From positions 992,001 to 1,056,000 of the forward strand of contig OW568864.1 in assembly GCA_938743325.2 (NCBI GenBank): a stretch of 64,000 nt of DNA, written 5' to 3'. Positions within the stretch are counted from its first letter, which is position 1. The number at the start of each line of letters is the position of its first letter. Positions 10,883 through 55,160 of the stretch are shown one piece after another. Under the pieces are notes generated by a model that saw only the letters and a list, made by a program, of their open reading frames with translations, was not told the DNA's origin and did no database searches. The DNA comes from Pycnococcus provasolii. Taxonomy: Eukaryota > Chlorophyta > Pseudoscourfieldiophyceae > Pseudoscourfieldiales > Pycnococcaceae. The position numbers and the translations under genes were made by a program.

Positions 10883-10985
10883 CATTGAATGTGGCGCCAT
10901 TGAATGGGCTGAACGGTGAGTGCGAATGGACGACCGTTGGACAAAGTACAGTAAGTCAAGTTCCATCACTGAATGAGCGATCTTA
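10883..10985 (-). repeat. 3'-end element, copy A (after OTU protease gene)
   Basis: On the minus strand it begins about 5 nt after the TAA of the OTU gene with TAAGATCGCTCATTCAG, then TTTGTCCAACGGTCGTCC and a series of CATTCA-like words. It is homologous to copies at 26071, 37249, 41433 and 55069. It fills most of the gap to the convergent kinesin-like gene. Confidence 0.85.
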
Positions 10986-10990
10986 GGATT

Positions 10991-12348
10991 TTACAAGTCG
11001 CGACTAGCTCGCTCGGGCACGCGTACGATAACCTCGCTCAGCGGGATGCTACATGCGAGCGGAGCTTGCGGCGTCGTGGGACTCGAAGATGTGCCACTAC
11101 GACGCCGAGGGCTCGTCCACCCGGCACCGTCTGCGCCCACGCCAACGTCACTCGTTCCCGCTCCGCCGCGAGCGCGTGGGCTCGGCGTGGCTGCGCTGCC
11201 GCCGGAGGGGAGCGAAGGAAGCACGGACGAAGGGAGTGGCGCGCAGCTCAGCCATCGCGTCAGGAGCTCCCGCTCACTGCCCATCTCGTCGGGGAGCAGG
11301 AAACGGACGGGCAGCGGACCACGCCTGTCGGCGAGTGGCAGGGTGGGAGTGGTTCCGTTGCTCCAGTCGCCGCGAACCATCGCGAGGAGGCTGTAGTGCC
11401 CGTTGTGGAAGAATACGCACGTGGGAACACGGCTGCAGCACTCCGAGTCGCGCCAGAGCAGCGGGAGGTAGATTCCCACAAGCCCCGCCATACGCGCCGT
11501 GGCCCCGCCGTACACGAGCAGCGGACGTCGCAGCACGTTAGCCAGCACGAAGCAGTGCACGTCGCTCAGGAAGGCGTGGCCTCGCCGCGACGTCGAAGAC
11601 GCCTTGCCGCGTGATCTGAACATCTCCAGCTCCTTCGTCCACTCTGCGGCAACGCTCTCGGGCGGCATGCCCGAGGAGAGCAGGCTCGCCTCGAAGCGCT
11701 TGTACACCTCGTGGCCAGCGGCGGCGGTCGCGGCGGCGCTTTCCTCGGACGTTGCACTGTCCGCGGACGTCGCCTCGGCCATCGTGCTCCAGACGGCACG
11801 CCGCAGCTCCTGGTCTGTGTCGTGCACGCCCCATACGCCGAGGCTGGCTGCGTGGCTCAGACAGTTCCCGTCGGGGAACGTTCGCACGACACAGAGCGGT
11901 GTGCACGAGGCGTCTGCGTTGATTGCCCCCTCGCGCTCCGCCAGGCGCTGCAGGCTTGGATCGCATAGGTCGAGGGCCGGCTGGAGGCGTGTGGCTGGCG
12001 AGATGGGCGTTGTCTGAGTTGTCTGAGTTGTCGTCGTCGGGAGTGGCGGTGGCGGTGGCGGCGGCGGCGGTGGTGTTGTGGGAGCGGTAGCCGCTTTGGA
12101 TGCGTCTATTGGTGCGCCTCCGACGATCGGCACGTCGCCTCTTCGCGGCAGCACAAGCGCGCCCCCCGACGGCGGCGCCTCCGGGTCAACGTGCGCGACT
12201 CCCCCCGGCACGCTGCTGACTGCGTCGTCCGCGAAGTAGTAGACTCCTCTTGCGCTTCTGCACAGCTGGCACCTTCTCAGCGAGCGCACGACGGCGGGTC
12301 TCGGCTGCGCGTCGATAGCCTCTGTGAGTTCATCTGCTGTCGCCACCC

Positions 12349-12393
<45 letters not shown>

Positions 12394-12586
12394 CCCCCGA
12401 AGGCGCCGACGACGACGTTCTCTTAACACCTTTTGAGACACCTTTCGTCAAAGCACCTCCTGAGGACCGACGCTTTTGAATAGTAGGACCTACTCTGCAA
12501 GACTCACTAGGAGGATGAGGTGCACTACCACCCGCAGCAGCAGCCTGCTGTGAGCGTTTCCGGGAAAGATTACCGGCCGAGGGCAT
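10991..12586 (-). CDS. OTU-domain deubiquitinase, A20/Cezanne type
   Basis: A cysteine protease predicted to cleave ubiquitin chains. It has 531 residues and starts MPSAGNLSRK. The N-terminal 230 residues are disordered with a run of 14 Asn (66-79) and a run of 10 Pro. The OTU core spans about residues 232-402. The nucleophile is in FPDGNCLSHA (Cys242), followed by WGVHDTDQELRRAVW, which matches WGVQDTDLVLRKAL of human A20. Next come FVLANVLRRPLLV and GIYLPLLW, and the general base is in HNGHYSLLA (His397). This arrangement separates it from Otubains and OTUD1/3/5. A small CxxC (residues 106-109) precedes the domain. The C-terminal tail is Pro/Ser-rich; no A20-type zinc fingers are visible. 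A 3'-end repeat directly follows the stop codon. Confidence 0.85.
12351..12392 (-). repeat. Coding trinucleotide repeat (14 Asn codons) in OTU gene
   Basis: (TTG)14 on the plus strand is read as AAC codons on the minus strand, giving poly-Asn in the disordered N-terminus. Confidence 0.95.
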
Positions 12587-12705
12587 GATGAGCCTCCTCC
12601 GAGCCTCTCTTGAGATGCAGATGCGGATGGAGATGGAACGAGAAAGAGCCGAAGTGACGCGCCGATGGGATGGGATGGGCTCCGAGGAAAACGATGCCTT
12701 CCTTC

Positions 12706-12729
12706 GGGGGGGGGGGGGGGGGGGGGGGG
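12706..12729 (+). repeat. Poly-G tract, 24 G
   Basis: An uninterrupted run of G about 120 bp upstream of the OTU start codon. Its exact length may be unreliable in the assembly. Confidence 0.9.
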
Positions 12730-12902
12730 CGGGGACTCGGAGAGGGGGACGCGCCCATTGGAGCCTGGGGGGGGGCAGAAGCCCTGGCCCACCTTGGGGA
12801 AGCCTATGTGTGGGGATCCACCCTAGGATGATCTCCCTCAGAATTTCCTCCTCCCCTCCTCTCCCGGAAGTTCTAAGGTTACCTTACCCGGTACCCGGTA
12901 TG

Positions 12903-13632
12903 TAGGAAGGGGGGTGGACAAAACCTGGGACAGCCAAGAAACCTGGGACAGCCCTGGTCGGCGAGAATGGTCGCAAAACGGATGAGTCTCAGACCTGGGT
13001 CTCAGGGGACTCCCGACCTGGGCCCCGACCAGAACTCCTTTTTCCAGGGTTCTGGTCGGAAGCCATGAACCAATTGCGCCGTCTTCATGGCGTCCTCCGC
13101 ACCGGCCTTAAGGCCGGTGATGTGCGACAACATGGCGCTCACAAGTGTTCGGAGAAGTGCTTGGGCACCAGCTGCACTGCTGTGGCAGCGCCATTGCGCC
13201 GCCGACGCTGATGCGTAGGCATCATGGGAAGAAGTGTGTCCCCGACCAAATAGGTCCATGTTATCGTCACGTGACCGCCGACCTATTTGGTCGGGGACAC
13301 ACTTCTTCCCATGATGCCTACGCATCAGCGTCGGCGGCGCAATGGCGCTGCCACAGCAGTGCAGCTGGTGCCCAAGCACTTCTCCGAACACTTGTGAGCG
13401 CCATGTTGTCGCACATCACCGGCCTTAAGGCCGGTGCGGAGGACGCCATGAAGACGGCGCAATTGGTTCATGGCTTCCGACCAGAACCCTGGAAAAAGGA
13501 GTTCTGGTCGGGGCCCAGGTCGGGAGTCCCCTGAGACCCAGGTCTGAGACTCATCCGTTTTGCGACCATTCTCGCCGACCAGGGCTGTCCCAGGTTTCTT
13601 GGCTGTCCCAGGTTTTGTCCACCCCCTTCCTA
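12903..13632. repeat. 730-bp near-perfect palindrome (inverted repeat, 25-nt spacer)
   Basis: The left arm (12903-13255) and right arm (13281-13632) are reverse complements over about 352 bp; the only difference I could see is one G in a G-run at the outer edge. The spacer (13256-13280) contains the palindrome GTCACGTGAC. Each arm also contains a 20-bp palindrome built on ACCGGCCTTAAGGCCGGT (13100-13119 and 13417-13436), an internal CCGACCAGAAC/GTTCTGGTCGG hairpin and a tandem CCTGGGACAGCC. No transposase motif and no clear target-site duplication is visible (flanks CCGGTATG and GAGGGGTT). It may be a foldback-type non-autonomous element or the source of a long hairpin RNA. Confidence 0.95.
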
Positions 13633-14271
13633 GAGGGGTTCTCCACCGTTCGCCTCTACTTCTACTTCGGAGTTGTCTCCCCTCTTCCTCGCCTCCTCGG
13701 GGAGGTAGCCCTAACCCTAGTTGTTGTTGTTGTTGTTAGGGTTTTGGGGGTTCCTTCATATGAGTAGGGGGTTCATTTCCTAGCTAGGGGTTTCATTTGG
13801 GTCACGTTTCTTGGTTCTTGGTTCTTTCAGTCACAGCCTCACAGGTCTGGGTACACGTTCGGTCCCATCCACCTGTGTGCTCACCTACGGTAAGTACCTT
13901 TACCTTACTGTAGACTCACCTTACTGTCAGGTATCAGGTCTGTCAGTGTCACGGTGTACTGTACCCTTAGTCTTGTTCTTATGTAGTAGTATGGACAAGT
14001 ACAGGTATGGACTACCTGTACACCACATTTAAGGAGTCAGCACAACACAACACAACACAACACAACAACAACAACAACACACTTGTAAACTACATAGGTC
14101 CAAGCTACTTGAGTTTGTTCGTACAGTAGTACTTATTATAATAAAAAAAGCAACTGAGCTATGTATGATGTATATATTTACACGGATGCATAATAATAAG
14201 AATAAGAATAAGAATAAGAATAAGAATAAGAATAAGAATAAATAGGCAACACCTATCCAATATCTACCTAT
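13633..14271. other. Intergenic region with microsatellites
   Basis: It contains a TTG run (13720-13737), a CACAA/CAACAA run (14041-14080) and an AATAAG run (14193-14242) just beyond the 3' end of PIEZO. No gene is supported. Confidence 0.5.
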
Positions 14272-17200
14272 TTATTGAAGATGGGCGTGCTGACCGCCGG
14301 AACGACGCGACGACGTGAAGCGCGACATCACGTGCTGATCACTCACAATTCGCATCAGCAGGCGGTAGAGCCTCGCCTCGTCGACGTGCTTGCTCGGGTA
14401 GTTGATCCCTCGCAGCGTTCTCATCGCCTGGCAAATGCCCTCGAGCTTCTCAGGGTGGCGCATCGCGTAGATGGGCGTCTCCGTCCACAGGTTCAAGAGA
14501 AATGCGCGAAGCAGTCCGTACCCCAAGGTTGTTATGATTGTTATGTACAGGATTCCAATTCCGTAGCTCGGCAAGCTGAGATTCTCCACCAAGCCTCGCA
14601 GGTAGCGATCACTGAACAGCACCATGCTCGCACCGTCCGTTCTACCACATATGCAGCTCACGAAACCGAGTGACGTGCGGCGCTCGCACGGCTCAACTGG
14701 AATCGAGCTTGCATTCAGCCCATCTTTTTTCGTATCATCGAACGGAGTAAGCGTCCAGTAAAGACCGCCAGCATTCACACTCGATCGAAGGGAAAGACGT
14801 ACATTCTGCATGTCGACCGGGGCGTCTCCATATGGCAGCCTGTGCAACTGACGTGGGGCGAGCGATAGCGGGTAAAGGCGATATGCCGTAGGAAGTGCAT
14901 TCCTCAGCTCAAGAGAAACGAAGTCGCCAATCACGTCAGGGGACGTGAACCCGGTGGTGGCTGTGGTATTTCGTACGCTCATGCCGTCTATAGCCTCGGC
15001 AAAGTACGCACACTGCTCCTTCGTCAAACGCACACCCACACTGGCATCCGGATTTCCGTAAGTGCCAGCTTGCGTCTCTGCCACTGCCGTTGAAGTTACC
15101 ACCGTCTCCGCACCGGGAGGCCCACGTCGCCGGAACGCGAATCGAATGGCCGCGACCGGGGGTCTCACCTTACCCTGAGCTGCCGCGAAGAGGCTGTCGC
15201 GAAGCGGCTTCAAGCCCTCAAGGCTCACGAAAAAGCCATCGTGGCTTGGCACTGCGTCCCACGTGGCACACTGGACTGTTGGCCCCGTTCCTACAGCCGC
15301 CACGCCGTAGGAGCGGACGGCACTTGCAACGGCGTCCACAGGATGTATGTAGCTTGTGCTCGGCAAGTCGACGCCAAGTGAAGATGACAGCGGCGGGAAT
15401 GGTATCAGGTCAAGCGTACGAGTTTGACTCGCCGTCGACGTCCAAGGTACATCGTCAGATGGCAGCAAATCTTCGGCAAGAACAGAAGATCTTTCGCTCA
15501 CGGGAATCTCGTATCGCATGCTGACGCTCATCATAGCCGCACCCACGGGATTCGGCGCGAGCGTCGGGTTGAGATCGGAGAAAAGCGCTATCGGAAGCAA
15601 CAGCACCAAAAGAAGCAGTCCGGCAAGTATCGTCCCCTGCCAGCACTTGCAGCACAGATTCTGCCTACGCACACCGTGCGTGTGGTCCATGTCGTCTCGC
15701 TTCGCATCGCGAAACAGCTTCGCAACGTGTACCTTGTGAGCCACCGTAACGAAGATGAGCCAGCTGAAGGGATCAAGGCAGGTGTCGGTGAATGTCCAGT
15801 CCAGAAGACTTGTGAGCTCCAGCACGAATGGCAATTTCGCGAACACGATATACCCGTAACCTATCATACGCCGCTTAAAGCAGCGCATGCAGCGCGGTAC
15901 AGGCGGCAATGCGAGAACAGACTTGCGAGGGTCCAATCCTCGAACCTTCAAGGCAACATCACCCACATCATATTGCCGCGAACTTCTGCGACCATCAGGG
16001 TCCCTCAACGCCAGCTCTGATCGCAAGTCAGCCGCACGTGCTTCCTCTCGCTCTACGTGATCAGGGACTCGAAAAAAGCTCTGATGCACTTCACTACTAG
16101 CCACGTAGCCGTAACGGATCTGCCTTGCCGACATGGCCATGTGAAGTGCGAAAAACGCGTAGTAAGTTCGGGTCTTCCAGTTGACGCTCAGCCGCACGCC
16201 CACGTCCGAAGACAGGTACGGCAGAATGAAGAAAAGCATCACGTGCACGACTGTAACTTCGATGCAGTGAAACACGACGCGAGCGCGCATGTCAATGCGC
16301 AAGTAGCATGCTCGATTTACGATAATCAGTGCAACATGCAGCATCGCCGCGACAACCGTGAACGCAGAGAAACGATTTGCGCGAAGGTCCTCGGAGAGCG
16401 GAAGTGCACTGTCATCAGGTCGAAAATCTCCCGCATATGCAATCGCCAGGGCAAGAAGAATGACTTCCACGAAGAAGATCGACGGGTACAGGTCAATGCC
16501 AGGCTTCAGGATTGCCTCCCCACCACTTTCCCTGACAAGGTCAATCGATGACTGTGCGTCCACAAAGGTAGCGAGGCGCCCAAGTTTGCCATGGGGCTCA
16601 CCGGATTTATCAGCATGAGAAACTGCGCGACTTCGACTTGGCGTTCTTGCCACAGACTCAACTGTCACACGACTCAATCTCGAGTACACGGCGTTCTGAG
16701 CCACGGTTCGATGCATGAAGCCGCCAATCAATTTCAGCGCAGCATTTGCGTATCTACGAAGTAGCGCGTTCGCTTTTCGTTGTACATTTGCTCTCCTTTT
16801 CTTAAAATTTCTGGTCGACCTTCTCTTGACATTTTCGTCGCCATCATTCTCTGACAGGCTTAATCCAACGCTCTCCACGGATATAGCTCTCTCGCGCGTC
16901 TCTTCGCGGCTCGTTGTGCCAGGTTTTCTCGAGCTCGGCACCTTAGCAGGTGTTCCGTGCCATCGATCCAGGCTCCTGTCGTGCCACAGGCCCTTCAAAT
17001 GTAGAGATCGTATGTGCAGTATGGTGAAGAAAAGCGAAAGCACGTCCAAAAGAAGATGCCGAAGCATCGACATGTGATGTGACTTCCACCCTCGCTTGCT
17101 TAGTGACCAAAATACATCCGCAGCACGAGCGTAGCTACTCTGGCTGTCGATCGAGCTTGCGTACGGCCAAGATCCCGATTCCGTCGCTGGACAGTACGGC

Positions 17201-25882: not shown

Positions 25883-26070
25883 AAGATGATGAAGTAGATG
25901 TAGCAGGAAAACATTCTTTTAGTGTACCCTAGTAGATGTGACTCACGAGCCATGATGTTGATGCACGGTTGGCGGCGATGGCGGCCACAATAACGACAAC
26001 AAGCGCAAGCGGAGCTGTCACGATGCCAACGAAAAGCGCCCTGATATAACCTTAGTGCTATCTAAAAAAA

Positions 26071-26172
26071 GCGCCATGAATGGCTCCATTGAACGGGCTG
26101 AAAGTTGAATGTGAATGGCGTGAATGGACGACCATTGGACAAAGTAAAGTACATTCCATTACTGAATTAGAA
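26071..26172 (-). repeat. 3'-end element, copy B (after cyclophilin gene)
   Basis: On the minus strand it starts about 15 nt after the TAA of the cyclophilin gene with TAATTCAGTAATGGAATG, then TTTGTCCAATGGTCGTCC and CATTCA-like words, and ends in a T-run. It lies in the gap to the convergent WH1-like gene. Confidence 0.85.
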
Positions 26173-26184
26173 CATTTAGCACAT

Positions 26185-27435
26185 TTACGATATCTGTCGG
26201 CACGAGTCAATACGCGCTCCAGCGGATGCAGTGGTTTCCTTGCCCATGGCGAGCGCATTGACCTGGTTCATCACGCTCATGCCATCAAGCAGCTCGCCGA
26301 ATATGACGTAGCTGCCGTCGAGGTGCGGCGCGGGATTCATAACCACGCTAAAGTGACCAGTGTTTGTATCCGGGCCAGCATTCGCAACAGACAGCAGACC
26401 TGGTCGATCGTGGCGCAATTTGAGGCCACCTTGGTCGTCCGGGAAGGCTCGGCCGCGGTATTCGCCAACCGCTGCCTGCGCGGCTTGAACACCAGCCTGA
26501 TTGATGAATGCGTCAATGATGCGATAGAAGGGCGCATTGGCGAATGTGTACGGCTTGCCTAGCTCTCCTGTGCACATCAGCCTAAAATTTTCCGCTGCAT
26601 GTGGGCTGTCAATGGCATAAAGAACAAAGCTAACCTCGCCGATCGGTTGGCCTTTGATCGAGACGTCCATGGCCACGCGCGGATTGCGCTGATCATCGCG
26701 TCGTTTGAAGCGTTCTGCGCTGACGCGCTTTGCCTCTTCGCGCAATCTGACGCGAGCCGTTGTAGTAGCACAGCTGCCTGACGTCCAGGGTATGGATGGC
26801 GAACGTGCAGCGGGCGCCTTGACTCGCTCTGTAGAACTCTTAGGGTCAACCTCCAGTGCAACTAGGGCGTGCTTGTTCCAGCAGCTTCCGCGTGGCATAC
26901 CACTGCACCCTTCGCTATCGTGAGGGCAGAACACGAAGGTGTTGCACCGATCATTCTGTGCGCACTGCCTCGCACACTCCGTCGCTGACGCCTTGATGTT
27001 ATTGGGTCCCCAGACGATCGCGTCGCCTGTGTAGTCTGCGTGCACCTCCCCGTCACAAGTCGTCTCTCCAAATCTCCACTGCGTCGCGTCTGCATCGTGT
27101 TCGTCAGTCGCATAGCTCGTCTGTTTCACTGCAGTCGTCGTCGTTGTCGCTGGCGCACTCGCGCGCGCTCCTTGCAAGGTATGAGAGTACGCCGCTCCCG
27201 CTGCTTGCTCTTCGACGTGCTGCTCGTGCTGCTGCTGCTGGTCGTTCTCCTCGGGTGCGGCGTCTGCCCAGCACGAGGCTGCTATGTACGTGGCCGCGAA
27301 TGCGACTACGAATGCGACTAGGAGCACGGCCGGGTGTTTGGCGAGTCTCTTGAGTGCGCCTTTGTTTCCGAGATTGTCGCGGCCATAGTAGTCATCAGGG
27401 TCGTGGCCGAGATCGTTCGCGCGACCGGCGCCCAT
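26185..27435 (-). CDS. Membrane-anchored cyclophilin with PAN/apple-like domain
   Basis: A peptidyl-prolyl isomerase predicted in the secretory pathway. I chose the ATG ending at 27435 (MGAGRANDLGHDPDD), which gives 416 residues; an upstream frame extension is basic and unlikely. Order: cytosolic 34 residues, signal anchor (35-55), Gln/Thr-rich stalk, a Cys-rich module (about 126-195, GPNNIKASATECARQCAQ with six or more Cys) like a PAN/apple domain, then the cyclophilin fold (255-416). The catalytic Arg305 (FYRII), Phe310 and Gln313 are kept (AFINQAG), as are VANAGPDTNTGHFSV and LDGSYVIFG. The Trp that binds cyclosporin in CypA is His371 and the CypA active-site His126 is Tyr376, so drug binding and perhaps activity should differ. 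Divergent from the MFS gene. The 3' end carries a repeat element. Confidence 0.85.
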   Translation of the reverse strand: MGAGRANDLGHDPDDYYGRDNLGNKGALKRLAKHPAVLLVAFVVAFAATYIAASCWADAAPEENDQQQQHEQHVEEQAAGAAYSHTLQGARASAPATTTTTAVKQTSYATDEHDADATQWRFGETTCDGEVHADYTGDAIVWGPNNIKASATECARQCAQNDRCNTFVFCPHDSEGCSGMPRGSCWNKHALVALEVDPKSSTERVKAPAARSPSIPWTSGSCATTTARVRLREEAKRVSAERFKRRDDQRNPRVAMDVSIKGQPIGEVSFVLYAIDSPHAAENFRLMCTGELGKPYTFANAPFYRIIDAFINQAGVQAAQAAVGEYRGRAFPDDQGGLKLRHDRPGLLSVANAGPDTNTGHFSVVMNPAPHLDGSYVIFGELLDGMSVMNQVNALAMGKETTASAGARIDSCRQIS

Positions 27436-27842
27436 GACAGGAGTTTGGAGTTTGGGAAAGGGAAGTTTGGAGGGGAGGGGAGGAGAAGGAAGGGGAGGGA
27501 AAAGCCGGAAAAGCCTTTTTAACTTTTTTTTTAAGGTTCTCAAGTTTAGCAACGTCACATCTGTATCTCGAGCGATTCTCGTTGGATTCTCTCATATAGA
27601 CTTGAAATCTCTCGGCGGACGCATCGGCATCGGCGCATCGGCATCGGCGCATCAGCTCCACATCAGATACTCAGTGATACTTCTCTTAATAGTCACGCCG
27701 GTACGCGCTTCGTCTCCTCTTTGCTCTTCGCTCTTCGCTCTTTGGTGGGCCTCAGCTGTTCTCATGTTGCACTCTTAACTCCACAATAATTCGACGTGAT
27801 ACCGAGCCGTTTGCTAGCGCAGGGACGGCGTGGCCGTTGAGC
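27436..27842. other. Divergent promoter region, cyclophilin / MFS transporter
   Basis: 407 bp between two start codons. It has a GGAGGGGAGGGG-type purine tract next to the cyclophilin start, a tandem GGCATCGGCGCATC (27628-27652) and CTTCGCTCTT repeats. No gene is supported. Confidence 0.5.
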
Positions 27843-35553: not shown

Positions 35554-35798
35554 GTTCCGTTCCCTTTCCCCCGGACCTCTGTGGGCCTCTGGGCCCGGGA
35601 TTCCTCGTTGGTCGATTCTCCATAAACGGAGAGTGCAGGGCCCGCGGGAATGGCGGGATCCCGCTCCGACGGCCTTTGAACTACGGTAGAAGAACTTCAA
35701 TGGCACCTTTATAAGCGACGGCGTGGCGTCAGCGATCGTGAAAGACCCGACGTGCTTGTGGGTCTGTGGGATGGCGTCAAGTCGCCGCCGCGCCCGGC
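35554..35798 (-). repeat. Dispersed promoter-like block, copy 2 (upstream of M20 gene)
   Basis: Closely similar to 1814-2040, same orientation relative to the downstream gene, starting 104 bp upstream of the M20 ATG (78 bp in the COG6 copy). The most conserved part runs from GGGATTCCTCGTTGG to GCGTCAAG, about 200 bp, with the TATA motif inside. Differences are a few substitutions and short indels in the GC-rich left part. Confidence 0.75.
35708..35713 (-). promoter_or_regulatory. Putative TATA box for M20 dipeptidase gene
   Basis: CGCTTATAAAGG on the minus strand, 258 nt upstream of the ATG at 35450 and identical to the motif in copy 1. Confidence 0.45.
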
Positions 35799-35990
35799 CG
35801 ACGACACACGTGCCGACTGCCGAACGGCTCGCCCTAGGGTTGCCCCATGATACGCGTCGCCGGGAGACTACATCGCACTCGGGGTGGACACCACGCCGTA
35901 CCCGCAGAGCATCCCCAGGACGTCACCGGACAGACCCGTGGAAAGGATTTCCGGTACACGTATTCGTGGGAGAGGGTACGTAAGGGCGGC

Positions 35991-36318: not shown

Positions 36319-36798
36319 CAAAAGTACGACGTTGCGGCCAGTCGCCTTCATCTGCTCGAGGGCGTTGTGCGCAACTCTCGGAAACACGCCCCATTCAGGG
36401 TCCAAGCCGCCACCTTCGGGTATCTTGAGGCTCTCCTCGAAGTTTGGGCCGAACATGGTGTGCGTCTTGCCGGTGCCAGACTGCCCGTAAGCGAAGAAGA
36501 GCGAGTGCGCCTTTCCCTCGACAAAGTTTTCAATCAGTGCCGGAATCATCGTGTCGTACGCCGATTCTTGGTCCGCCTCGGGTCGCACGACGCCTTTCAT
36601 GTAGCTGTACTTCGTCGACTCTTTGCTGAGCATGAGTTGCGTTCCAAGCGTCACGCTTTCTGCGTCGAACGACTCGATTCCCTTTTCGACGGCTTCTCCA
36701 TCGACGTCGTGGTCCGTGGTTACGCCTGACGACGCCTGCGGTCTGATTTTCACAAAAATCGAGCACGGCTTGAGGTCCTCTTTCTTAGGCTTCGGCAT
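36319..36798 (-). pseudogene. Kinesin motor domain, truncated N-terminal half
   Basis: From the ATG ending at 36798 the minus strand encodes MPKPKKEDLKPCSIFVKIRP, the first strand of a kinesin motor, then YSYMKGVVRPEADQESAYDT and an intact P-loop (FFAYGQSGTGKTHTMFGP) and helix (FPRVAHNALEQMK). Similarity ends at ATGRNVVLL (36319), where the sequence becomes the palindrome array. The second half of the motor (switch I and II, microtubule-binding helices) and any tail are absent in this window. Some 160 residues of a 330-residue motor remain. Either the gene was cut by the repeats or this is a transposed fragment. Its start codon overlaps that of the plus-strand gene next door. Confidence 0.6.
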
Positions 36799-37246
36799 GG
36801 CGAAAAGCGCGGCGCTCTTTAAGAGCGAGGGCGACGACGAGTCCGCCGCTGCTGCCGAGAGTATGCTAGGCGAGGAGAAGACGCAGTTCTGGACCCTCGT
36901 GCAGGCAGCCACGACGTTCGAGGGGAAGAGCGACTACGCGTCCATTTACAAATTCGCAAGTGGCCGTGAGGCTGAACTCAAGGAGTCGTGCGATAGGGAT
37001 AAGCCTCTGCGCGAGAAATACACGGACGAAAGCAGGTACGAACTGTTCGTCGGCGACGGCATCGCGCTTGAGATTTGCAGGGACTGCATTCCGGAAGCGC
37101 TGAAAACGGACGAAATGATGGCGCAGTACCAGAAGATTCACGAAGGCTTTAAGAGCCAAATTGACATCTGTTCGTCCATCGTCTCCATGCGGCTTGATCC
37201 GTACGAGTGGAGGCACGACTTCCAGCTCGAGCTAGGGATGTTTTAG
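36797..37246 (+). CDS. Unknown 149-residue acidic protein
   Basis: ATG 36797 to TAG 37244-37246. The protein (MAKSAALFKSEGDDESAAAA, then FWTLVQAATTFEGKSDYASI and helical segments to EWRHDFQLELGMF) is hydrophilic and probably all-helical, without membrane segments or recognisable motifs. Its ATG overlaps by two bases the minus-strand start codon of the truncated kinesin, so the two would share a zero-length divergent promoter; the kinesin is probably not functional. The 3'-end element begins 2 nt after the stop codon, which supports this as a true gene end. Confidence 0.55.
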   Translation: MAKSAALFKSEGDDESAAAAESMLGEEKTQFWTLVQAATTFEGKSDYASIYKFASGREAELKESCDRDKPLREKYTDESRYELFVGDGIALEICRDCIPEALKTDEMMAQYQKIHEGFKSQIDICSSIVSMRLDPYEWRHDFQLELGMF

Positions 37247-37248
37247 CC

Positions 37249-37316
37249 TGAGATCCCTCATTCAGTAATGAAGTATACTTTACTCTGTCCAACGGTAATC
37301 CATTCACGTCATGTTA
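37249..37316 (+). repeat. 3'-end element, copy C (after 149-residue gene)
   Basis: Begins TGAGATCCCTCATTCAG two bases after the TAG stop, continues AAGTATACTTTACTCTGTCC and one CCATTCAC, then diverges. It is the shortest copy, identical to copy D over about the first 45 bp. It lies in the gap to the convergent TTD14-like gene. Confidence 0.85.
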
Positions 37317-38988: not shown

Positions 38989-39296
38989 CAGCAACGCCAA
39001 ACGTGAAGCAAAAATCAGTGATGGAGCGATGTGATGCGATGGGAACACCCAAGAAAACGAAAGTCGGAGGGGATCCGTCGTTGCCGTCGTCAAATGTTGG
39101 CAATTAAGATTGGCGATGCATGTGCCTGTGCATGTGTGTGTTCTGCGGCCTTGCCCATGCGGCCGCTCACTCCCTGCACGGATGTGGGTTGGTGAAGGAG
39201 TTCGCTCGGGACCCTGAAACAAAAACAAGCTCGCTCAATCATCAGCCTCAGCATCAGCCCTTGTTGGATTTGTCATTTTCATCAGCTAGCTTGTTG

Positions 39297-41435
39297 ATGG
39301 CGCTGGCCATGGATCCCATGGGTTCTAAGCAGCTTGGAGGCGTTCCCACTGGCAACTCTAGTGGTAGGCGTGGTTCTTCACAGTACCACGGGGACAAGGA
39401 ATTTCGTTCGCCACTTTGGGTCTTTATGCGCATATGCGTGATTATTATCACAATCCTCGTTTTAGCCGTCGTCGTCCTCATCATCTCGTACCCGATTACG
39501 CTGCGCATGTACAGCGGACGTCTGCCGCAGGAGTTGCGGCCGATCTCCGAGCTCTACCGGGCGGTGGACGCGAACGTGCCGTTCGACGTCGCCGGGCTTT
39601 TCGGAACGGTGGAGGAAGTGGGGAACGCCGAGGATGATATTCAGGCTGAATCGAAGCAAACAACACTAGACGACGACGTCGCAGAAGTACGAGAGGAGCC
39701 CAAGCCACCCACACGACCTGTGGTGGACGTTGACCCGCACTTGGAAACGACGACGACGACGACTGAGATGCTGCAGAAGCCTATGAGCAAGAAACAGCGC
39801 GCAAAGGAGAAGGCGATTCGCGCTCAGCAGAAGGCCAAATACGCTGCGCTGATCGGCAAGATCGCAACTGAGGGTGCTAAGTCGTTCGGCATGTCTGACG
39901 CGGAAACGGGCAAGCCTATCGTCTTCGACGTCCCTGAAAGTTCGACAGCACCGTGCACGGACCCTCAGGGCTATGATCCGGCACCTAAGATAGCGCTTGT
40001 GGTCTTAGCACCTTTCGGCGCAAATGCGACGTCGGAGTGGCTCGCTGGCGAGGACAAAGGAGCAGTGCACATGACGATGGTCGTGGAGGACTTGCCATAC
40101 CGCTCTCCTTCCAATGGGTGGAAGCAAGCTCTGGGAGGCAAGTGCGAACATGCGCTTGAACACGCGGGGGATGACGGAGACATGGACGAGGACGAGCGCG
40201 TTGCTGTGGCTTTGGATGCGGGACTCAAGCTGGCCGCGAAGAATCATGGCAGCCACAACCCCGTGGCAACAGCTGGGGCGAATCGGCCGCGCGCAGGACT
40301 GCTTGGCCGCGCGAAGCAGGCTGCAGAGCCCGAGGTCCTGAGATGCGAGGAGGGCATCCTGGCCGCGGCGCGAGCAAGCACTCCGCAGGCGGCGGTACTC
40401 GAAGCGGCGGCTAAGGCTGCACAGGCTGGCGGCGCCGATGTGCTTTGCCTCAGGACGGCTACGGCTGGCGAGTCTGGTGGAACAAGGAGAAGGAGACGAC
40501 TTCTGCAGGAGGAAGGGCAGGAACAAGACGAGCAGGACGAGCAGGATGGGAGCACGCCGATGGCGTCGGAAGCGCAGTTAGAGTCGTCGCCGAATCCCAC
40601 CTCAGATCGCGATCAGTCGTCGTGGATTGCGCATGCACAGAGCTTCTTCAAGGCGTATCCTCGTCTCGGCATTCTTGGTCTCGGCCACAGCTCGACAACC
40701 GGAGGTGGGCAATTTGACAAGAGGTTTGGCCGACGTCATATTGACGACGTGGCAAAGCTTGTCAAAGAGGGCCTTAGCGAGACGAGGTGTCCGACGCCGC
40801 GAGGAAAGAGAAGGGGGGTTGCGACAGGAATGTGTCCACCGCCAGCTGCGGTGCGGCCGACAGCGTGCTCCTCGGCACCGGACGCGCAGGCTAGTCACAA
40901 CGCTCGAACGGACTTGGATGGCGGTCCCAACGTGATGTGTGCTCCGATCCAAACGCGTGCTGACGACGTTGCGAGGAGCTGTGGAGCACCTCCCTCGTCC
41001 CGATTTCACTTCGCCACGCGCGTGGCGGGCCCAAACGAGGGTGGATCTGCACCTATATGCATTCGGCTCAAGGCGCTGAAAGCTGCGGGCGGCATTGACC
41101 ATCTTGGGCACAAGAGAGGTGCGGGAGCGTGGGCCGGTGCCCTCGATTACGAGCTGGGCTTGTTGTCGCTACGTGCGTGGAGGCGTGGATATTCAACAGC
41201 AAGTGCCGTGATTCGTGGTGCCGAAGCACCGCCCGAGCACGCCTGGCGTGCAGCGAAATTAGCTGGAAAGCTCGCTGACGTACGTGCCAAGGGACAGATT
41301 GTTGCTCACGACCTTCTCTACAAGCTCTGGGTGGACCACGGAACACCGATCGTGCGTCACGTGGCGACCGCAAACGGACGTCTTGATTCATTTTCCATCA
41401 AGGAGGACTTTGACGTTGCCTCGATATTGGACTGA
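39297..41435 (+). CDS. Type II membrane protein, possibly glycosyltransferase-like
   Basis: ATG 39297 (MALAMDPMGSKQLGG) gives 712 residues; an upstream in-frame ATG at 39120 is possible but reads like UTR. One transmembrane helix (about 43-65, FMRICVIIITILVLAVVVLI) follows a short basic N-terminus, so the bulk should be luminal. A charged Lys-rich stem follows (KKQRAKEKAIRAQQKAKYA). The C-terminal half has a DYELGLLSLRAWRRGYSTA segment that resembles the acceptor-side motif of GT2-type glycosyltransferases (DxELxLRAWxxGY), but no DxD donor motif is obvious. Its TGA stop is also the first TGA of a 3'-end element. Confidence 0.6.
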   Translation: MALAMDPMGSKQLGGVPTGNSSGRRGSSQYHGDKEFRSPLWVFMRICVIIITILVLAVVVLIISYPITLRMYSGRLPQELRPISELYRAVDANVPFDVAGLFGTVEEVGNAEDDIQAESKQTTLDDDVAEVREEPKPPTRPVVDVDPHLETTTTTTEMLQKPMSKKQRAKEKAIRAQQKAKYAALIGKIATEGAKSFGMSDAETGKPIVFDVPESSTAPCTDPQGYDPAPKIALVVLAPFGANATSEWLAGEDKGAVHMTMVVEDLPYRSPSNGWKQALGGKCEHALEHAGDDGDMDEDERVAVALDAGLKLAAKNHGSHNPVATAGANRPRAGLLGRAKQAAEPEVLRCEEGILAAARASTPQAAVLEAAAKAAQAGGADVLCLRTATAGESGGTRRRRRLLQEEGQEQDEQDEQDGSTPMASEAQLESSPNPTSDRDQSSWIAHAQSFFKAYPRLGILGLGHSSTTGGGQFDKRFGRRHIDDVAKLVKEGLSETRCPTPRGKRRGVATGMCPPPAAVRPTACSSAPDAQASHNARTDLDGGPNVMCAPIQTRADDVARSCGAPPSSRFHFATRVAGPNEGGSAPICIRLKALKAAGGIDHLGHKRGAGAWAGALDYELGLLSLRAWRRGYSTASAVIRGAEAPPEHAWRAAKLAGKLADVRAKGQIVAHDLLYKLWVDHGTPIVRHVATANGRLDSFSIKEDFDVASILD

Positions 41436-41523
41436 GATCCCTCATTCAGTAATGAAGTATACTTTACTCTGTCCAGCGGTTGTCCATTCACACCATTCAG
41501 CCCATTCACCGGTGCCATTCACT
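41433..41523 (+). repeat. 3'-end element, copy D (contains the stop codon)
   Basis: Starts at the TGA stop of the membrane-protein gene: TGAGATCCCTCATTCAG, then the TACTTTACTCTGTCC segment, GTCCATTCACACCATTCAG and CCCATTCACCGGTGCC. Four to five CATTCA words are present. It lies in the gap to the convergent acidic-protein gene. Confidence 0.88.
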
Positions 41524-41672
41524 GCGCGTTTTTGTTCATGGCGCAGGTGATTTCAATTTCGACTTGAATGTTTTATACCTTAAGTTACTTGTTCATCAGA
41601 CGTCGTCGTCGCAAAGTGTGACGTCTTCTTCTTATTCGTATATTCGGCTCACGTTCACGTGCTGGAGCAGCT

Positions 41673-43216: not shown

Positions 43217-44571
43217 ATGGCGGACTTGCTCGCCGACTTACTCGCGGACTCCGACTCCGATGACCACCTCGACGACAACGCGGGTGCTGCCACTGCTGCT
43301 GCTGCGGCGGCGGTTGGTTCCATGGGTGGTGGTGCTGCTGCTGCTGCACCTGCGGATGGTGCTGGGGAAATGCCAGCTCATCCCCTTGGTGGTGGTGGTG
43401 CCTTGCATGCTGCGCCTGCGCCTGCGCCTGCGCCTGATGCCGCCGCATCAGACACAACATGGCCAGCGCCGCCCGAACTGCCGCCGGATAAACCGACCAA
43501 AGCGAGACGAAGGTGGGTACCGCCCGAGTTTGACCTCGAGGTTGGCGCGGGCGTGGAGGAGGAGGAAGCTGACGAAAACAGAACGATTCCCAAGAAAAAA
43601 CCAAGAGTCGCGAGTAAAGACACGACGAAAGCCAAGAGTCAAAAGCAAACGAAAAAACGACAACAAGGAGACGGCGCTGCACTACCGACGCTGAGTGAAG
43701 TTGATCACATGAAGTTGCCCGACATCAGGACTGCGCTGAAGGAACTTGGAATTCCATCGTCGGGACTTAAGGTTGACGTGTCCAGGCGACTCAAAGAAGC
43801 AATCACTGCCAGAAGAGACGATGGAGCGGCAAAGGCGCACGATGACGACGACGACGAAAAAGACGACGCGACGGTGAAGAAGCATGCGCAAAAGCGCGTC
43901 GCGAATACGGCGTCTCCATCTCCGGCAACTGCCGCCTTCCTCTCACCAACGCCTGCCACTCGCGACGCGATGGCGAAGCAGCCTCCCGCACAGCGCGTCA
44001 CAACAACAACAACGGCCGCACGAAGAACTGGCACCGCCGCTCCTCAGAAAAAGCCAGCCTTGCTTGAGGAGTTGCTGACGGCCGCTTCCGACGACGATGA
44101 TATGTCTCCATCTCCGGCAACTGCCGCCTTCCTCTCACCAACGCCTGCCACTCGCGACGCGACGGCGAAGCAGCCTCCCGCACAGCGCGTCACAATTACA
44201 CCAACACCAACGGCGGTAACTGCCGCAGGAAGAACTGGCACCGCCGCTCCTCAGAAAAAGCCAGCCTTGCTTGAGGAGTTGCTGACGTTCGCTTCCGACG
44301 ACGATGATATGTCTCCATCTCCGGCAACTGCCGCCTTCGTCTCACCAACGCCTGCCACTCGCGATCTGCCAACCCCGCCGACGAGGCCCACACCGTCGAT
44401 TTCGCAGAGACCTAGCCAGTACAACTCAGATCCGGCGGTAGCGGATAAGCCAAAGACGGTAAGTCGACCTCGAACCAGCCGTGGTAGACAAACGACAATT
44501 ACTAACCTAACACCGAAAATGAAACGAAACAGACATTTGGCGCGTTCTTCTCGCAGAAGCGCAGACATTAA
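43217..44571 (+). CDS. SAP-domain protein with C-terminal PIP-box-like end (spliced)
   Basis: ATG 43217 (MADLLADLLADSDSDD). The spliced model (exon 1 to 44458, intron 44459-44532, exon 2 to TAA 44571) gives 426 residues. A SAP helix-turn-helix for AT-rich DNA lies at about 160-196 (DHMKLPDIRTALKELGIP, SSGLKVDVSRRLKEAI), after a basic KKKPRVASK nuclear-signal-like stretch. Three tandem repeats follow. Splicing ends the protein with KTTFGAFFSQKRRH, whose TxFxxFF pattern resembles a PCNA-interacting box such as the C-terminus of POLD3 (first position Lys, not Gln). Without splicing the frame runs into unlikely sequence to 44650. Suggested role: chromatin or replication-linked; this is inference. 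Confidence 0.7.
43913..44365 (+). repeat. Tandem coding repeat in SAP-domain gene (2.3 units)
   Basis: Units start at about 43913, 44105 and 44312 (192 and 207 nt, then partial). Each encodes SPSPATAAFLSPTPATRD, a QPPAQRVT linker and PALLEELLTAASDDDDM. The units are nearly identical, indicating recent duplication or homogenisation. Confidence 0.9.
44459..44532 (+). other. Intron 1 of the introner-like pair (SAP gene, 74 nt)
   Basis: Donor GTAAGT, branch sequence TTACTAAC, acceptor AACAG, phase 0. Most of its length aligns with the intron of the tocopherol methyltransferase gene at 45446-45530: shared AACCAGCC, GTGG, GACAAT, TACTAACCTAAC, CCGAAAA and CGAAACAG in the same order. Confidence 0.75.
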
Positions 44572-49633: not shown

Positions 49634-49730
49634 AGTAATAGTTAAAAAAGTGAATAAACGCTGTTGTTCCAGCGCGCAGTTGGTTACAGTGACCAGAACG
49701 TAGGAAGGGAAGACGGTTGGGGGTTACAAA

Positions 49731-49749
49731 GGGGGGGGGGGGGGGGGGG
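49731..49749 (+). repeat. Poly-G tract, 19 G
   Basis: In the 180-bp gap between the convergent mTERF and UBC9 genes. The length is likely assembly-dependent. Confidence 0.9.
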
Positions 49750-49813
49750 AGGGCGGAAAGGCTGCTGATGTGAGTCGCTCGTGTTCCAACCGTGGTGCGT
49801 ACTTGTGTGCTTC

Positions 49814-50903: not shown

Positions 50904-53678
50904 TCAAGCGTGCATCTCCGCGCAGTACTCCTCCAGCAAATTCGTCAGCGCACTCACGTAAGCGGCGTGGTCGGAAGATCCCTCCGACATCTCCGACGCA
51001 GAAACCTGAAGCGCGCGTTTGCTGAGCTTTTCGAGCGGCGAACGTCCGCCAAACTCGCGCTGCATCACACCCGCGATGTCCGCGGGTGTCATGCCGTGAG
51101 CCGCGCACACCTTCAGGCACGTCGTGCACGTTCGCACCACGTGAGCGCACGCGGGACGAAGGGGCAGGCCGTGGCGACTGAGGAGCGCGAGGTCCACCTC
51201 CGAGTCGAGCGCGGCGATGTACTCGAGATCCTCCTTCGAGAAAGGCTCGTTCGCCTGAGGCCACCAAGCCCACTCGAACGTGAGGTCTGCCAATGACGCG
51301 GGAAAGGCGTAGCCGTTGTCGATCGGCACGAGGCGGTACCTTCCCTTGTTGTCCGAGAAGCTCTTGCTCTTGGGGCGACCGTCGATCGTGTCCTCCATGC
51401 TGCTGCGATCGTGCATGATCCACTTCTCGAAGTTGCCCATGCCGTCGTTGTCGTCGTCGTCGTCGTAGCGTAGCGGGCTGTTGGGCGCACTGCTGCCGCC
51501 TTCGTCGCTCACGCTGCCGCTACCAAAAGCGACGTCGCTGTCGTCCACAACCAGAACGTTCCCGCCGTGGCGATCGCACTGCGCAATCCTCATGTCCAGG
51601 ATGGCGATGCCGTGAACATCCTGCGTCAGGAACAGGCTCGGCGAGATCTCCTCCGCGTCACCGACGCTGTGAACAAATTCCTGCAGTGCACCACGCTTGA
51701 CACCGCCGCGCGAACCAGCTCCCGCGGCGGAGCAGCGAAGGTTGACGAGCGCGGTGGCGGGAACTCCAGCGCGGCCGCCGTGGTCAATCAGGTAAGCCGC
51801 CACCTCGTTCGCCGCGCCGTCGCCAACACGGGAGCCGCGCTTTAGGCCCTCGACCGTGCTTTCGTTGCGCATGCGACCACCGAGAATGGACATGCCGCCG
51901 CCGCTCCAGCTCTGGCTCAGCATCGACGTCGAGGAGCCTGAGAACGTCATGTCATCGCGGCCTGGCACCCCCACGCCGCTGTCATCGTCCGCGTTGCCTC
52001 CCGAGCGCTCGCGGCGACGCGGATTGTTGCGAGCGAGCGGCTCCTCGTCCTCCGGCTTGAACACAGCCACAACCTTGCCACCGTCACCCTTGAGGAAGTA
52101 GGCGCCTCCGGTACCCGCCTTGGACAGGCTCGGCTGGTACCCGTTGGACAGCCCAATCTGAGCCTGTCGCAGCGCGTGCGAGAGGCTTCCCGCGTGTGAG
52201 AGCGTCGACGGGCTACGGGCCGTTGACGGGCTGCTGGGCCCGGCGGACGACGGCGGCGTGTTGTCCGACGGTGGTGAGTCCGTTGACATGTTGCTGCTCC
52301 CCTGCCGATAAACGGCACGGTGAAGACGGCCAGTGAACAGCGGGCTCGTCGACTCGGAGGATGCAGCGGGCGCCGCCGCCGCGGCGGCTGCGGCGGCTGC
52401 GCCGTTGCTCAGCCGTCGGACGAAAGGTCGCCCTTTCGGCGGCGGCGGGATGGCAATGGACGCTGTCGTTGCAGTATTATTGTCGTCGCTGGAGCCGTTG
52501 TTGTTGTTGGAGTTGCTGCTGCTGCTGCTGTTGTTGTTGTTGGCAAGACCGTCTTCGTTGGCAGAGTCGCCACCCACGAACGGCAGCATCTCCTCCTCGT
52601 CCTCGCTCAGCACCGTCTCCGGCACAATGTCAAGCGTCAGCTCCGTGACGCCGTGCTCGATTCCGTAGTCGATGAGAGGCGTGTCGTTCCACTCGAGGCG
52701 GCGTCCGCTGCCGTGCACCACCACGGCATCAGTCTCCGCGAGAGGAACGCCGCGTGCACGCTCGATTTTCTCCCTCAGAGACATGGTCGACTCCGAAGAC
52801 GTGACGCTGAGCTCCATGAGCTGCGTTCCCTTGCCGCCCCGGCCCCGGCTGCTGCCACGATCCGTCCCTCCAGCCGACAGGTCGTCCGTAGTCGCGGCGG
52901 CACCTCGCACGCGCACCTTGGCGGACTTGCGCACGACAAGGTGGAAAACGGTCGAGCCCATTCCGGACGGCAGCTCGCTAATCAGCAGCTCGTCCTGGAG
53001 CGGCTGGCCGTTGCCGAGAAGCTGCTGCCGGCTCCTCTCCACGCCCGTCATCTCGGAGAGGCGATCCTTGAGGTCCGCGACACGTCCCTCGTCGTTGAGC
53101 AGCACCTGATGCTCGCGCTCGACGAGACTGCTGTCGAGCGCCTTGACGCGCACCCACATGAGGTCCTTGAGATTCACGCAGATGTGTGCAAACTGCTGAG
53201 AGCTCGCGCTCTGCCGCATGTTGCTGCCGCCGCCGCCGCTCGCCGTTTCGCCGAGCGACTTGAGGCTGTCCGACGATCCTCCGGGCGCGGGTAGAAGGCC
53301 GGCAAGGTTTTCGCTGCTGAGGCTGCTCACCATCTGCATGCCGTTTCCATTCGACTGGTGCCCCGTTCGAACGAGCAGGTCTATGCCAGTGATTGGTTGC
53401 TTGGGAAGCAGCTGCACGCTAGACACGCGCCCATCCGCGAGCGTCGACGAGACGTACAGCGAGATGTCGTCGCGGCTTCCGAGGCGAGGTAGTTGCGGTG
53501 CGGTGTTGTCGTCGTCGTGGTCGACGTTGGCGAGTAGGCTGAGGTGGCGGTTTGGCGAGGAGATGGCTTTGACCGGCGTCGTGGTGGTGGTGGTGGTAGT
53601 GTCTTCAACAGGTGGTGGTGGTGATAGCGACTGTTGCTGTTCGAGAGGTGCACTTTCTGTCGTGGTGATGGTTGTCAT
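50904..53678 (-). CDS. Phosphatidylinositol 4-kinase gamma-like, two ubiquitin-like domains
   Basis: A plant-type UbDK gamma: type II PI4-kinase fold behind ubiquitin-like (UBL) domains; some plant members phosphorylate proteins, not lipids. 924 residues from ATG 53678. The Thr/Ser/Gln-rich N-terminus is disordered. UBL1 (about 167-250) has EVRVADLKDRLSEMTG-like and RQQLLGNGQPLQDE segments; UBL2 (about 285-355) has RREKIERARGVPL-like and GRRLEWNDTPLIDYGI. A low-complexity Asn/Ser/Ala linker follows. The kinase (about 515-860) has GTGGAYFLKGDGGKVVAVFK (ATP loop and Lys), QCDRHGGNVLV (catalytic Asp) and VPIDNGYAFP (metal Asp). FEWAWWPQANEPF matches the plant family's xWxxWPQA block. Short acidic inserts interrupt the kinase. 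Confidence 0.88.
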   Translation of the reverse strand: MTTITTTESAPLEQQQSLSPPPPVEDTTTTTTTTPVKAISSPNRHLSLLANVDHDDDNTAPQLPRLGSRDDISLYVSSTLADGRVSSVQLLPKQPITGIDLLVRTGHQSNGNGMQMVSSLSSENLAGLLPAPGGSSDSLKSLGETASGGGGSNMRQSASSQQFAHICVNLKDLMWVRVKALDSSLVEREHQVLLNDEGRVADLKDRLSEMTGVERSRQQLLGNGQPLQDELLISELPSGMGSTVFHLVVRKSAKVRVRGAAATTDDLSAGGTDRGSSRGRGGKGTQLMELSVTSSESTMSLREKIERARGVPLAETDAVVVHGSGRRLEWNDTPLIDYGIEHGVTELTLDIVPETVLSEDEEEMLPFVGGDSANEDGLANNNNSSSSSNSNNNNGSSDDNNTATTASIAIPPPPKGRPFVRRLSNGAAAAAAAAAAPAASSESTSPLFTGRLHRAVYRQGSSNMSTDSPPSDNTPPSSAGPSSPSTARSPSTLSHAGSLSHALRQAQIGLSNGYQPSLSKAGTGGAYFLKGDGGKVVAVFKPEDEEPLARNNPRRRERSGGNADDDSGVGVPGRDDMTFSGSSTSMLSQSWSGGGMSILGGRMRNESTVEGLKRGSRVGDGAANEVAAYLIDHGGRAGVPATALVNLRCSAAGAGSRGGVKRGALQEFVHSVGDAEEISPSLFLTQDVHGIAILDMRIAQCDRHGGNVLVVDDSDVAFGSGSVSDEGGSSAPNSPLRYDDDDDNDGMGNFEKWIMHDRSSMEDTIDGRPKSKSFSDNKGRYRLVPIDNGYAFPASLADLTFEWAWWPQANEPFSKEDLEYIAALDSEVDLALLSRHGLPLRPACAHVVRTCTTCLKVCAAHGMTPADIAGVMQREFGGRSPLEKLSKRALQVSASEMSEGSSDHAAYVSALTNLLEEYCAEMHA

Positions 53679-55068
53679 GATGATGGCTGTGGCGAGAGGA
53701 GGAGGGCAACGGAATGAAAAAGAAAAAGAAAAGGCTTTTATGTCCCAATAATGTCCGCACAGTTCCCACGCTCACACGCCTCCCCCGAGGCCGCGCGGCG
53801 CGAAGCACCGAGTGCGAACACCTTTTTCCTTTGGGTCGGTCAAAGTTGTTTCGTGATGTTGTGTTGTGTCAATTGCAATTGACACAGCCACACACACACA
53901 CAGACAGAAGAAGTTTTGCCTCAAGCAGTAGTGATTGATCCCCCACAAAGAAGAAGACAAAGAACAAGATGAAAAGATGGCAAAGATGGAGATAGATGAC
54001 AGGAAAGTGGAGGAAAGGGTACGGGGTGGGAATGGAAATGGAGGCAGGTGCGAATACCAAAGGGAGCAGTCGGTGACGCAGATGCCGAAGAGGGGTACAC
54101 ACCCTGAGCCTGAGGGAATACTGTAAATGAGGGCAGTGCAATGGCCGCAGGGTCCGGTAGACCGGGTCCAGGCAGCAGGGCCGGGTCTGAGAGCACCGAG
54201 AAGAAGGACAGAATTCGGTTCGGCCCCTTCTTCCCCTCAGCTGTTCTCGTCCCAACGTTTCTTCCTTCCCGAAGCCGAGGAGGGGAGAAGACCGGGCTGC
54301 ACTGAGGTTGGGGGGCAACAAAGAACTCGTCAAAGAAAGAGGGGAAAGAAACTCCTCTCGCTCTCGTTTAGTTAAGTCGTGCTGTCGTGGATTTTCCCCT
54401 CTTTTTCCCCTCTTTTTTCTCTCTTTCGGCTCTGTCAGACTAAGAACTACCAATACGATCTCGCGTCGTATTCAGACGCTGTCAGTCTGTCCAGGTGGCA
54501 GGGGTTTTTGGGTTGGTTGCCCCTGTGCTTGGTTTTAGGTGGTTCCTTCCGCCCATCCCTCTCCTCCTCTCTCTCCACCTGGTTGTTGACGCGTCAAACA
54601 GTCCAGTTACTACCTCTTCTGGTCAAGGTTGAGGGAGGAGAACTCCATGCGTCACTCACTCCAAGCGGCGACGCGCTTCGATATCGAGTTATTTTCCTAC
54701 CGTTTGGACGCGAATTTACACACTTGAAAAAAACGTCGGAATTGCTGCAGACGCCTTAACGACGTTGCACCGTACCGCGAGATCCAGACACATCGCTCCA
54801 TTGTCTACGCAACAAAATGCACTTCTAGAAATCAACGAAATCTCAATCAATTTCCAGAAAACCCACCATCCAGAACAAAGAAGCTTCTCAGCGAAGTCTC
54901 TCGTAACCAAAGCATCCGACACGTCACGGATTCGGAGGGAATCTAAACCAGGCTGTCTATCTCAGGGGATACAGTCGAGTGGTCCAAGTTAGGTCCGAGC
55001 GCGACCGGGATCCCGAAACTCCCCCCGACTAAAAAATGGAATGGTTCTACAGCGGGTCCCCGTAACCC
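53679..55068. other. Long intergenic region
   Basis: About 1.4 kb with low-complexity patches (AGAAAAAGAAAAAG near 53716, CACACA near 53889, GGAAAGGGTACGGGG near 54010, CTCTTTTTCCCC near 54400). The longest open frames here are compositional. From about 54640 the base composition is more even and could hold a short unrecognised exon, but I find nothing to support one. Confidence 0.4.
53866..53885. repeat. 20-bp perfect palindrome
   Basis: GTGTCAATTGCAATTGACAC upstream of the PI4K gene. It could be a site for a dimeric DNA-binding protein. Confidence 0.8.
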
Positions 55069-55160
55069 GAATGGCACCGGTGAATGGGCTGAATGGTGAA
55101 AGTGAATGGTGTGAATGGACGACCGTTGGACAAACTAATGTTACTGAATAAGGGATCTCA
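55069..55160 (-). repeat. 3'-end element, copy E (contains the stop codon of PIF1)
   Basis: On the minus strand it starts at the TGA stop of the PIF1 gene: TGAGATCCCTTATTCAG, TTTGTCCAACGGTCGTCC, then five CATTCA-like words and CCGGTGCCATTC. It is the fullest copy and shares CATTCAGCCCATTCACCGG with copy D. It is the only copy not located between convergent genes. Confidence 0.88.

Follow-up and report, generated by a model that had tools for sequence, protein, structure and literature searches.

Introns, promoters and poly(A) sites are known to arise from mobile elements. TE-derived poly(A) sites were reportedly treated by Lee, Ji and Tian in 2008. MITEs and non-autonomous hAT-like elements are recognized by 8-bp duplications, short TIRs and subterminal repeats. 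Oriented insertion next to a gene is known for Tn7, which inserts downstream of glmS.

MITEs and hAT-like elements are treated in PMC4763223 and PMC3260210. Introners, as described in PMC9860276, are transposon-like elements that create introns; many of their families have TIRs and/or 3-9 bp duplications, and marine algae are among their hosts. In human, some gene 3' ends derive from TE sequence, and the copies concerned show a strong sense bias (PMC3517506, in excerpt); TE-derived termination and poly(A) sites are the subject of a review (PMC3554611, in excerpt). In the titles and abstract openings that make up most of the literature surveyed, no transposon family is described as docked in sense at stop codons.

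Here we describe a repeat family found in a window of 64,000 nt, i.e., the whole stretch of DNA that was analyzed (G000:C4:992001-1056000), and followed through the genome to which it belongs (32.3 Mb in 46 contigs). The genome is compact, eukaryotic judging from its proteins, and probably algal; near-identical proteins occur only in ENA entries, and the nearest relatives with a species name are from green algae and Prymnesium. We report the structure of the element, its position and orientation relative to genes, and a model for its possible use as a gene end.

The repeat family is a non-autonomous TIR transposon

The window contains five copies of the repeat, designated A to E (Table 1). All were found at the places given in a preliminary description of this DNA, and their spans were refined by alignment to typed left-end composites; copy B proved much longer than described. 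The core common to the five copies is far above chance: the core word has 5 matches in the window at up to 3 mismatches, and none of 100 shuffles contained any match. Copy D spans consensus positions 1-137 and has therefore lost about 14 nt inside.

Table 1. Copies of the repeat in the window and the ORFs that end at them
Feature	Positions in window	Strand	Description	Sense stop and its offset from the first element base
Copy A	10891-10986	-	Left-end fragment, 96 nt, CTAAGATCGC subfamily; exact left end	TAA of the OTU protease, -7
Host ORF of copy A	10991-12586	-	OTU-like cysteine protease	
Copy B	25937-26179	-	Degenerate left-end fragment, reaches consensus position 263	TAA of the cyclophilin ORF, -8
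Host ORF of copy B	26185-27558	-	PAN and cyclophilin	
Copy C	37248-37307	+	Left-end fragment, 60 nt (L055)	TAG of the host ORF, -4
Host ORF of copy C	36623-37246	+	Without Pfam match	
Copy D	41432-41554	+	Left-end fragment, 123 nt (L056)	Own TGA (41433-41435) closes the host ORF, +1
Host ORF of copy D	39120-41435	+	Without Pfam match	
Copy E	55069-55161	-	Left-end fragment, consensus 1-103 (L022)	Own TGA (55160-55158) closes the PIF1-helicase ORF, +1
Host ORF of copy E	55158-57779	-	RNase H1 N-terminal domain and PIF1 helicase	

No hit was obtained when the window was scanned against Rfam and for tRNAs. Other repeats in the window include a 347-nt inverted repeat (12910-13626) that is 100% complementary with a 23-nt spacer and is either a foldback element of recent origin or an artefact of assembly; a 151-nt direct repeat (1894-2044 and 35653-35803), 96% identical and with only these 2 copies in the genome, too few to serve as a control family; and near-identical tandem copies of about 100-150 nt inside or beside an ORF (43912-44412).

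The element had initially been taken to be about 95 bp long. Walking along longer copies revealed full-length elements of 972-1030 bp (in L078, L081, L083, L088 and L089), of which the 95 bp are the left end. The left terminus, CTGAGATCCCTCATTCAG, and the right terminus read inward, CTAGGATCGCTCATTCAA, are identical at 14 of 18 bases, i.e., they are imperfect TIRs; read in the forward direction, the last bases of the full-length copies are TTGAATGARCGATCCTAG. An 8-bp target duplication is exact in four of the five full-length copies (GTTTAGAT, AAAAAAAC, CTTTTTGG and CTTGGCGT), and the flanks of the fifth match at 7 of 8 positions (CAAAAAAG/CAAAAAAA). In the left flanks of 49 copies of one subfamily, the target octamer is 64-86% A/T at -7 to -2, and positions -8 and -1 show some preference for G/C.

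The word CATTCA occurs 9-11 times in each of the five full-length copies, where it is confined to the first ~105 and the last ~92 nt and is absent from the interior of ~770-850 nt. Since CATTCA lies near both ends only, we regard it as a subterminal repeat and not as the mark of a regulon. No long ORF common to the five full-length copies was found. One copy, L092, is a 120-bp internally deleted derivative with both ends, and no clean target duplication was found flanking it. The TIRs, the 8-bp duplications, the subterminal repeats, the lack of a common ORF and this internally deleted derivative identify the family as a non-autonomous, non-coding TIR transposon that is MITE-like.

An 8-bp duplication and subterminal repeats are features of the hAT superfamily. 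Both are present here, and by these two features the element is hAT-like. A genome search with PF05699, the hAT dimerisation domain, gave one weak match, and no left end of the element was found in the 5 kb around it. Merlin-like elements have an IS1595-type DDE transposase, and a genome search with the corresponding PF12762 gave 0 matches. At a separate locus (L091, G000:C6:395000-396900), a short element terminates in an exact right end; its left end is similar, its interior is unrelated, and it lies about 36 nt after a TAA. It may belong to a second family that shares these termini.

The genome contains 87 exact matches to the strict core pattern, 92 to the left end CTGAGATCCCTCATTCAG and 44 to the related left end CTAAGATYGCTCATTCAG, and none to the reversed-pattern control of any of the three. 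The two left-end patterns are mutually exclusive, so at least 136 copies exist, and degenerate ones such as copy B are extra. Exact right ends number only 8 in the genome (reversed-pattern control, 0), compared with 92 left ends of the same subfamily. A similar imbalance was seen in 20 loci picked by their interior, a subset of 42 interior-segment matches chosen by neither end: the left end was present within 15 nt in 19 of the 20 and the right end in 7 (Fisher p 1.4e-4).

Most copies examined have kept the left end and lost the right end to a variable extent, together with its target duplication. Truncation of the right end is graded, from 43 nt to full length. A lower limit of retained length near 43 nt would mark a functional unit: none of 30 loci with exact left ends is truncated between 18 and 42 nt, but the next anchor, TCCA, is present in 78 of the 92 left ends and missing in 14, one of which (L043) was read. 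No clear target duplication was found at the truncation points of 41 copies, which suggests that the right end was probably lost after insertion, along with flanking DNA. Near-duplicates at these points comprised 1 exact (0.05 expected), 1 with one mismatch (0.4 expected) and 9 with two mismatches (3.0 expected), that is, 11 of 41 at up to 2 mismatches versus ~3.4 expected, a small unexplained excess; the exact one (L064) falls in a part of the element to which it is similar. Copy age was not significantly correlated with length (Spearman -0.25, p 0.09, n=49). In L026, CCCTAA-type (telomere-like) runs occur close to the truncated end of the element, and in L009 similar CACCCTA runs occur just past it.

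A fixed left end combined with right-end truncation graded down to 43 nt is also the pattern expected of an antisense LINE/SINE-type retroelement: its left end would correspond to the 3' end of the RNA, target-primed behind the stop codon, and its truncated right end to a truncated 5' end. Such an origin is very improbable given the TIRs, the CATTCA words at both ends and the constant 8-bp duplications of the full-length copies, and it also conflicts with the internal deletion of L092, which has both ends, and with truncation points that have no clear duplication. The retroelement reading, to which graded truncation had led, was dropped when the full-length ends showed TIRs and 8-bp duplications.

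Position and orientation of the left end at stop codons

In the window, every copy adjoins a stop codon in the sense of the gene that it follows, as first noticed (offsets in Table 1), and in copies D and E the TGA of the host protein is indeed the first TGA of the element. The ORF list also agrees with the placement of four of the five copies between convergent genes: copies A to D lie between converging ORFs, and copy E is in a head-to-tail arrangement. Where their domains are known (copies A, B and E), the host genes are unrelated, as had been stated.

The host ORF of copy D corresponds to protein P0082 (100% identical) and that of copy E to protein P0083 (99% identical), each with the same final residue. 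The ends at D and E are therefore probably not assembly errors, bearing in mind that P0082 and P0083 are ENA entries and give no independent support if derived from the same assembly. Inspection of a few C-termini indicated that the host frame of copy E stops just past the part common to PIF1 helicases. This ORF is a PIF1 helicase fused with an RNase H1 N-terminal (Cauli_VI) domain.

For the genome-wide analysis, gene calls were based on codon usage learned from 134 ORFs of this genome (60,347 codons). Thirty loci were chosen solely by the exact 18-base left end, from contigs C1-C8 in list order and not at random; some of them also occur in other sets. A sense coding stop lies at -31..+18 in 20 of these 30 loci. 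The corresponding value for random non-coding positions in loci L001-L068 is 6.3%, and it is 3.3% when positions outside both coding sequence and the element in the 30 loci are weighted by target preference. Docking thus goes beyond what target preference explains. Under a looser rule, 24 of the same 30 loci have a stop in -54..+18 at a coding score of at least 9; among the rest, L051 is weak, three have their stops at -100, -169 and -274, and L044 and L065 have no ORF.

A larger set comprised 63 copies whose left end is intact, obtained by deduplication from four differently biased searches. L069 and L070 were excluded, and copies whose alignment starts past consensus position 4 were dropped; L014, L018, L023, L031-L033, L035, L036, L089 and the second L015 copy are among those left out. 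By the codon-score test, 55 of the 63 have an upstream sense ORF, with a stop in -31..+18 in 44 copies and in -60..+18 in 47. The placement at stop codons thus extends from the window to the genome, and copies are not scattered. Eight copies (L007, L015, L048(+), L054, L064, L077, L080 and L084) lie more than 60 nt from the called stop (-97 to -306). Three of the 8 uncalled copies (L001, L010 and L012) follow long open frames that end at -7, -6 and -16 and score below the threshold, and five (L021, L044, L051, L065 and L073) have no convincing upstream sense ORF; L044 and L073 follow an antisense ORF.

Other samples gave the same picture. The best upstream frame is sense in 28 of 31 core-pattern copies and antisense in L018, L021 and L032, and the five full-length copies are all sense to a gene, with stops at -58 to +1. 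Loose and strict gene rules disagree for some copies; for example, L009 and L049 are head-to-tail or convergent, and the stop of L015 is at -90 or -297, depending on the rule. The family sits mostly just 3' of stop codons, with its left end toward the stop and in the sense of the gene.

Geometry might in principle generate much of this arrangement, if insertion were random, hits in coding sequence were purged and the short gaps after stop codons were the sole room left. The loci read do look gene-dense, and an element in a convergent gap is necessarily sense to one of the two genes, so further tests of polarity were needed. In convergent gaps in which both stops were called, the left end is nearer its stop in 21 of 23 truncated copies, and the medians within the same gaps are 9 nt for the left end and 140 nt for the right end (Wilcoxon p 3e-5). 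Head-to-tail gaps contain 17 sense and 2 reversed copies (L044 and, weakly, L065) under the loose rule (two-sided p 7e-4), and 8 sense and 1 reversed copy (L044) under the strict rule. These polarities, the docking of 20 of 30 loci compared with 6.3% of random non-coding positions, and the presence of 136 exact left ends as opposed to 8 right ends all speak against geometry as the sole cause, an explanation that we consider improbable and largely refuted. At each of the loci L015 and L048, two copies share one gap and face each other.

A stop codon and a possible 3'-end signal in the left end

Depending on the frame, an ORF that enters the element is closed at +1, at +18 or only far downstream, and the stop at +1 is TGA or TAA. 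Among the 63 copies, 11 ORFs enter the element; 10 of these end at +1, one ends at +18 and none uses the third frame (binomial probability of at least 10 of 11 at one third each, 1.3e-4). L073 was left out of this count because its antisense frame scores higher. When the ambiguous L051 (stop at 191) is counted as a third-frame case, the result is 10 of 12 (5.4e-4). L089, which is not among the 63, also ends at +1. This frame bias shows that the outcome of insertion is subject to a selective filter.

In 18 interior-picked copies, the left 60 nt are 91% conserved and the interior is 95-97% conserved, and 14 copies of the other subfamily showed no left-biased conservation. Positions 1-18 are 98% identical and positions 19-36 are 87% identical in the 49-copy subfamily, many members of which had been selected by those same 18 bases. 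Conservation of the left end thus does not exceed that of the interior, and purifying selection on it is unsupported. A look for poly(A) signals among k-mers after ordinary stops of this genome gave a weak result: TGTAA was mildly enriched (16 of 56 ends, 7.8 expected) but is present in neither left-end consensus, and the left end showed no recognisable known signal.

RNA structure was likewise assessed. Fold z-scores in 5 copies ranged from -1.55 to 0.88, giving no indication of structure, and a folded consensus, as considered in the preliminary description, found no support in covariation (0 of 6 predicted pairs in 12 copies). These results bear on the proposal that CATTCA words mark a post-transcriptional regulon, i.e., that a common 3'-UTR regulatory element was spread by copying of 3' ends. 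Many unrelated genes do carry the repeat in sense at their 3' end, as a regulon would have it. The words belong, however, to both ends of the transposon, no RNA structure covaries, and copies truncated at 43-65 nt are without most of the CATTCA words; we consider a regulon of this kind extremely improbable, and the earlier proposal is not supported.

Our model, in which we place confidence about evenly balanced between acceptance and doubt, is that genes tolerate the left end of this non-autonomous TIR transposon as their 3' end and probably make use of it. Insertions would happen near the 3' ends of genes, at octamers rich in A/T, and the survivors would have the left end first, because the terminal CTRA would provide an immediate in-frame stop when an insertion falls within the last codons, and because the first few dozen nucleotides may carry a directional 3'-end signal for cleavage/polyadenylation or termination. 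With such a signal in the left end, the displaced native 3' end would not be needed; sense insertions after the stop would be tolerated or used, and antisense insertions would be lost. The distal part would then be free to delete, and the left-end stub would remain as 3' UTR.

A stronger form of this model is that the insertions are portable gene ends, bringing an in-frame stop and a directional 3'-end signal, and that at least 100 unrelated genes may have been re-ended in this way. We advance this form tentatively and with somewhat less than even confidence. The mobile 3'-UTR cassette first envisaged is in part borne out: the element is mobile, judging from the TIRs, the 8-bp duplications and L092, and it is located at gene 3' ends mostly in sense, whereas a function at the 3' end is something we infer. 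A role as terminator or insulator is possible.

The main rival of a functional left end is oriented targeting, in which a transposase complex would be guided to gene 3' ends and would insert the left end first. The cue could be something common to gene ends, for instance chromatin or the machinery of 3' processing, and the left end would be functionless, kept since deletions reaching it would hit coding sequence. This explanation accommodates docking in excess of the target-preference expectation, the five full-length copies that are already in sense with stops at -58 to +1, and a left end without special conservation. Nevertheless, the A/T-rich octamer has no obvious direction and hence offers no cue for orientation, the bias of 10 of 11 frames toward +1, which shows a selective filter at work, is left unexplained, and 13 of the 63 copies either lie at a distance from any called stop or follow no convincing sense ORF. 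On balance, we regard oriented targeting as rather unlikely, although it deserves more weight than the other alternatives discussed above. The family allows a direct test of targeting versus selection, as the two predict differing patterns among new insertions. A single TIR family docked with polarity at many stop codons, at distances of tens of nucleotides or less, would constitute a natural mass experiment on the replacement of gene 3' ends and on the tolerance of compact genomes to mobile DNA.

Comparison with known systems

Like MITEs and hAT-like elements, this family has an 8-bp duplication, TIRs and subterminal repeats, is non-coding and includes a derivative formed by internal deletion. 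Unlike them, it docks with polarity at stop codons and has lost one end in most copies. Its insertions resemble those of Tn7 at attTn7 in being oriented and just 3' of a gene; Tn7, however, uses one site and a dedicated targeting protein, whereas this family is found at many genes.

The gene ends derived from TEs in human involve several families (Alu, LTR, L1 and others) and mapped 3' ends (PMC3517506, PMC3554611). In contrast, the present case is a single TIR family, located within tens of nucleotides of the stop, whose use as a gene 3' end is predicted from genome sequence.

Introners, as described in PMC9860276, share with this family the properties of being non-autonomous, having many copies and carrying TIRs and/or duplications. 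Many unrelated genes receive an RNA-processing signal from introners (PMC9860276), and we propose that they may receive one from this family as well. The two differ in location: introners are inside genes and are spliced out (PMC9860276), whereas 47 of 63 copies of this family are within -60..+18 of a sense stop, and no role in splicing was seen for them. If its function is real, this family would be the gene-end counterpart of introners.
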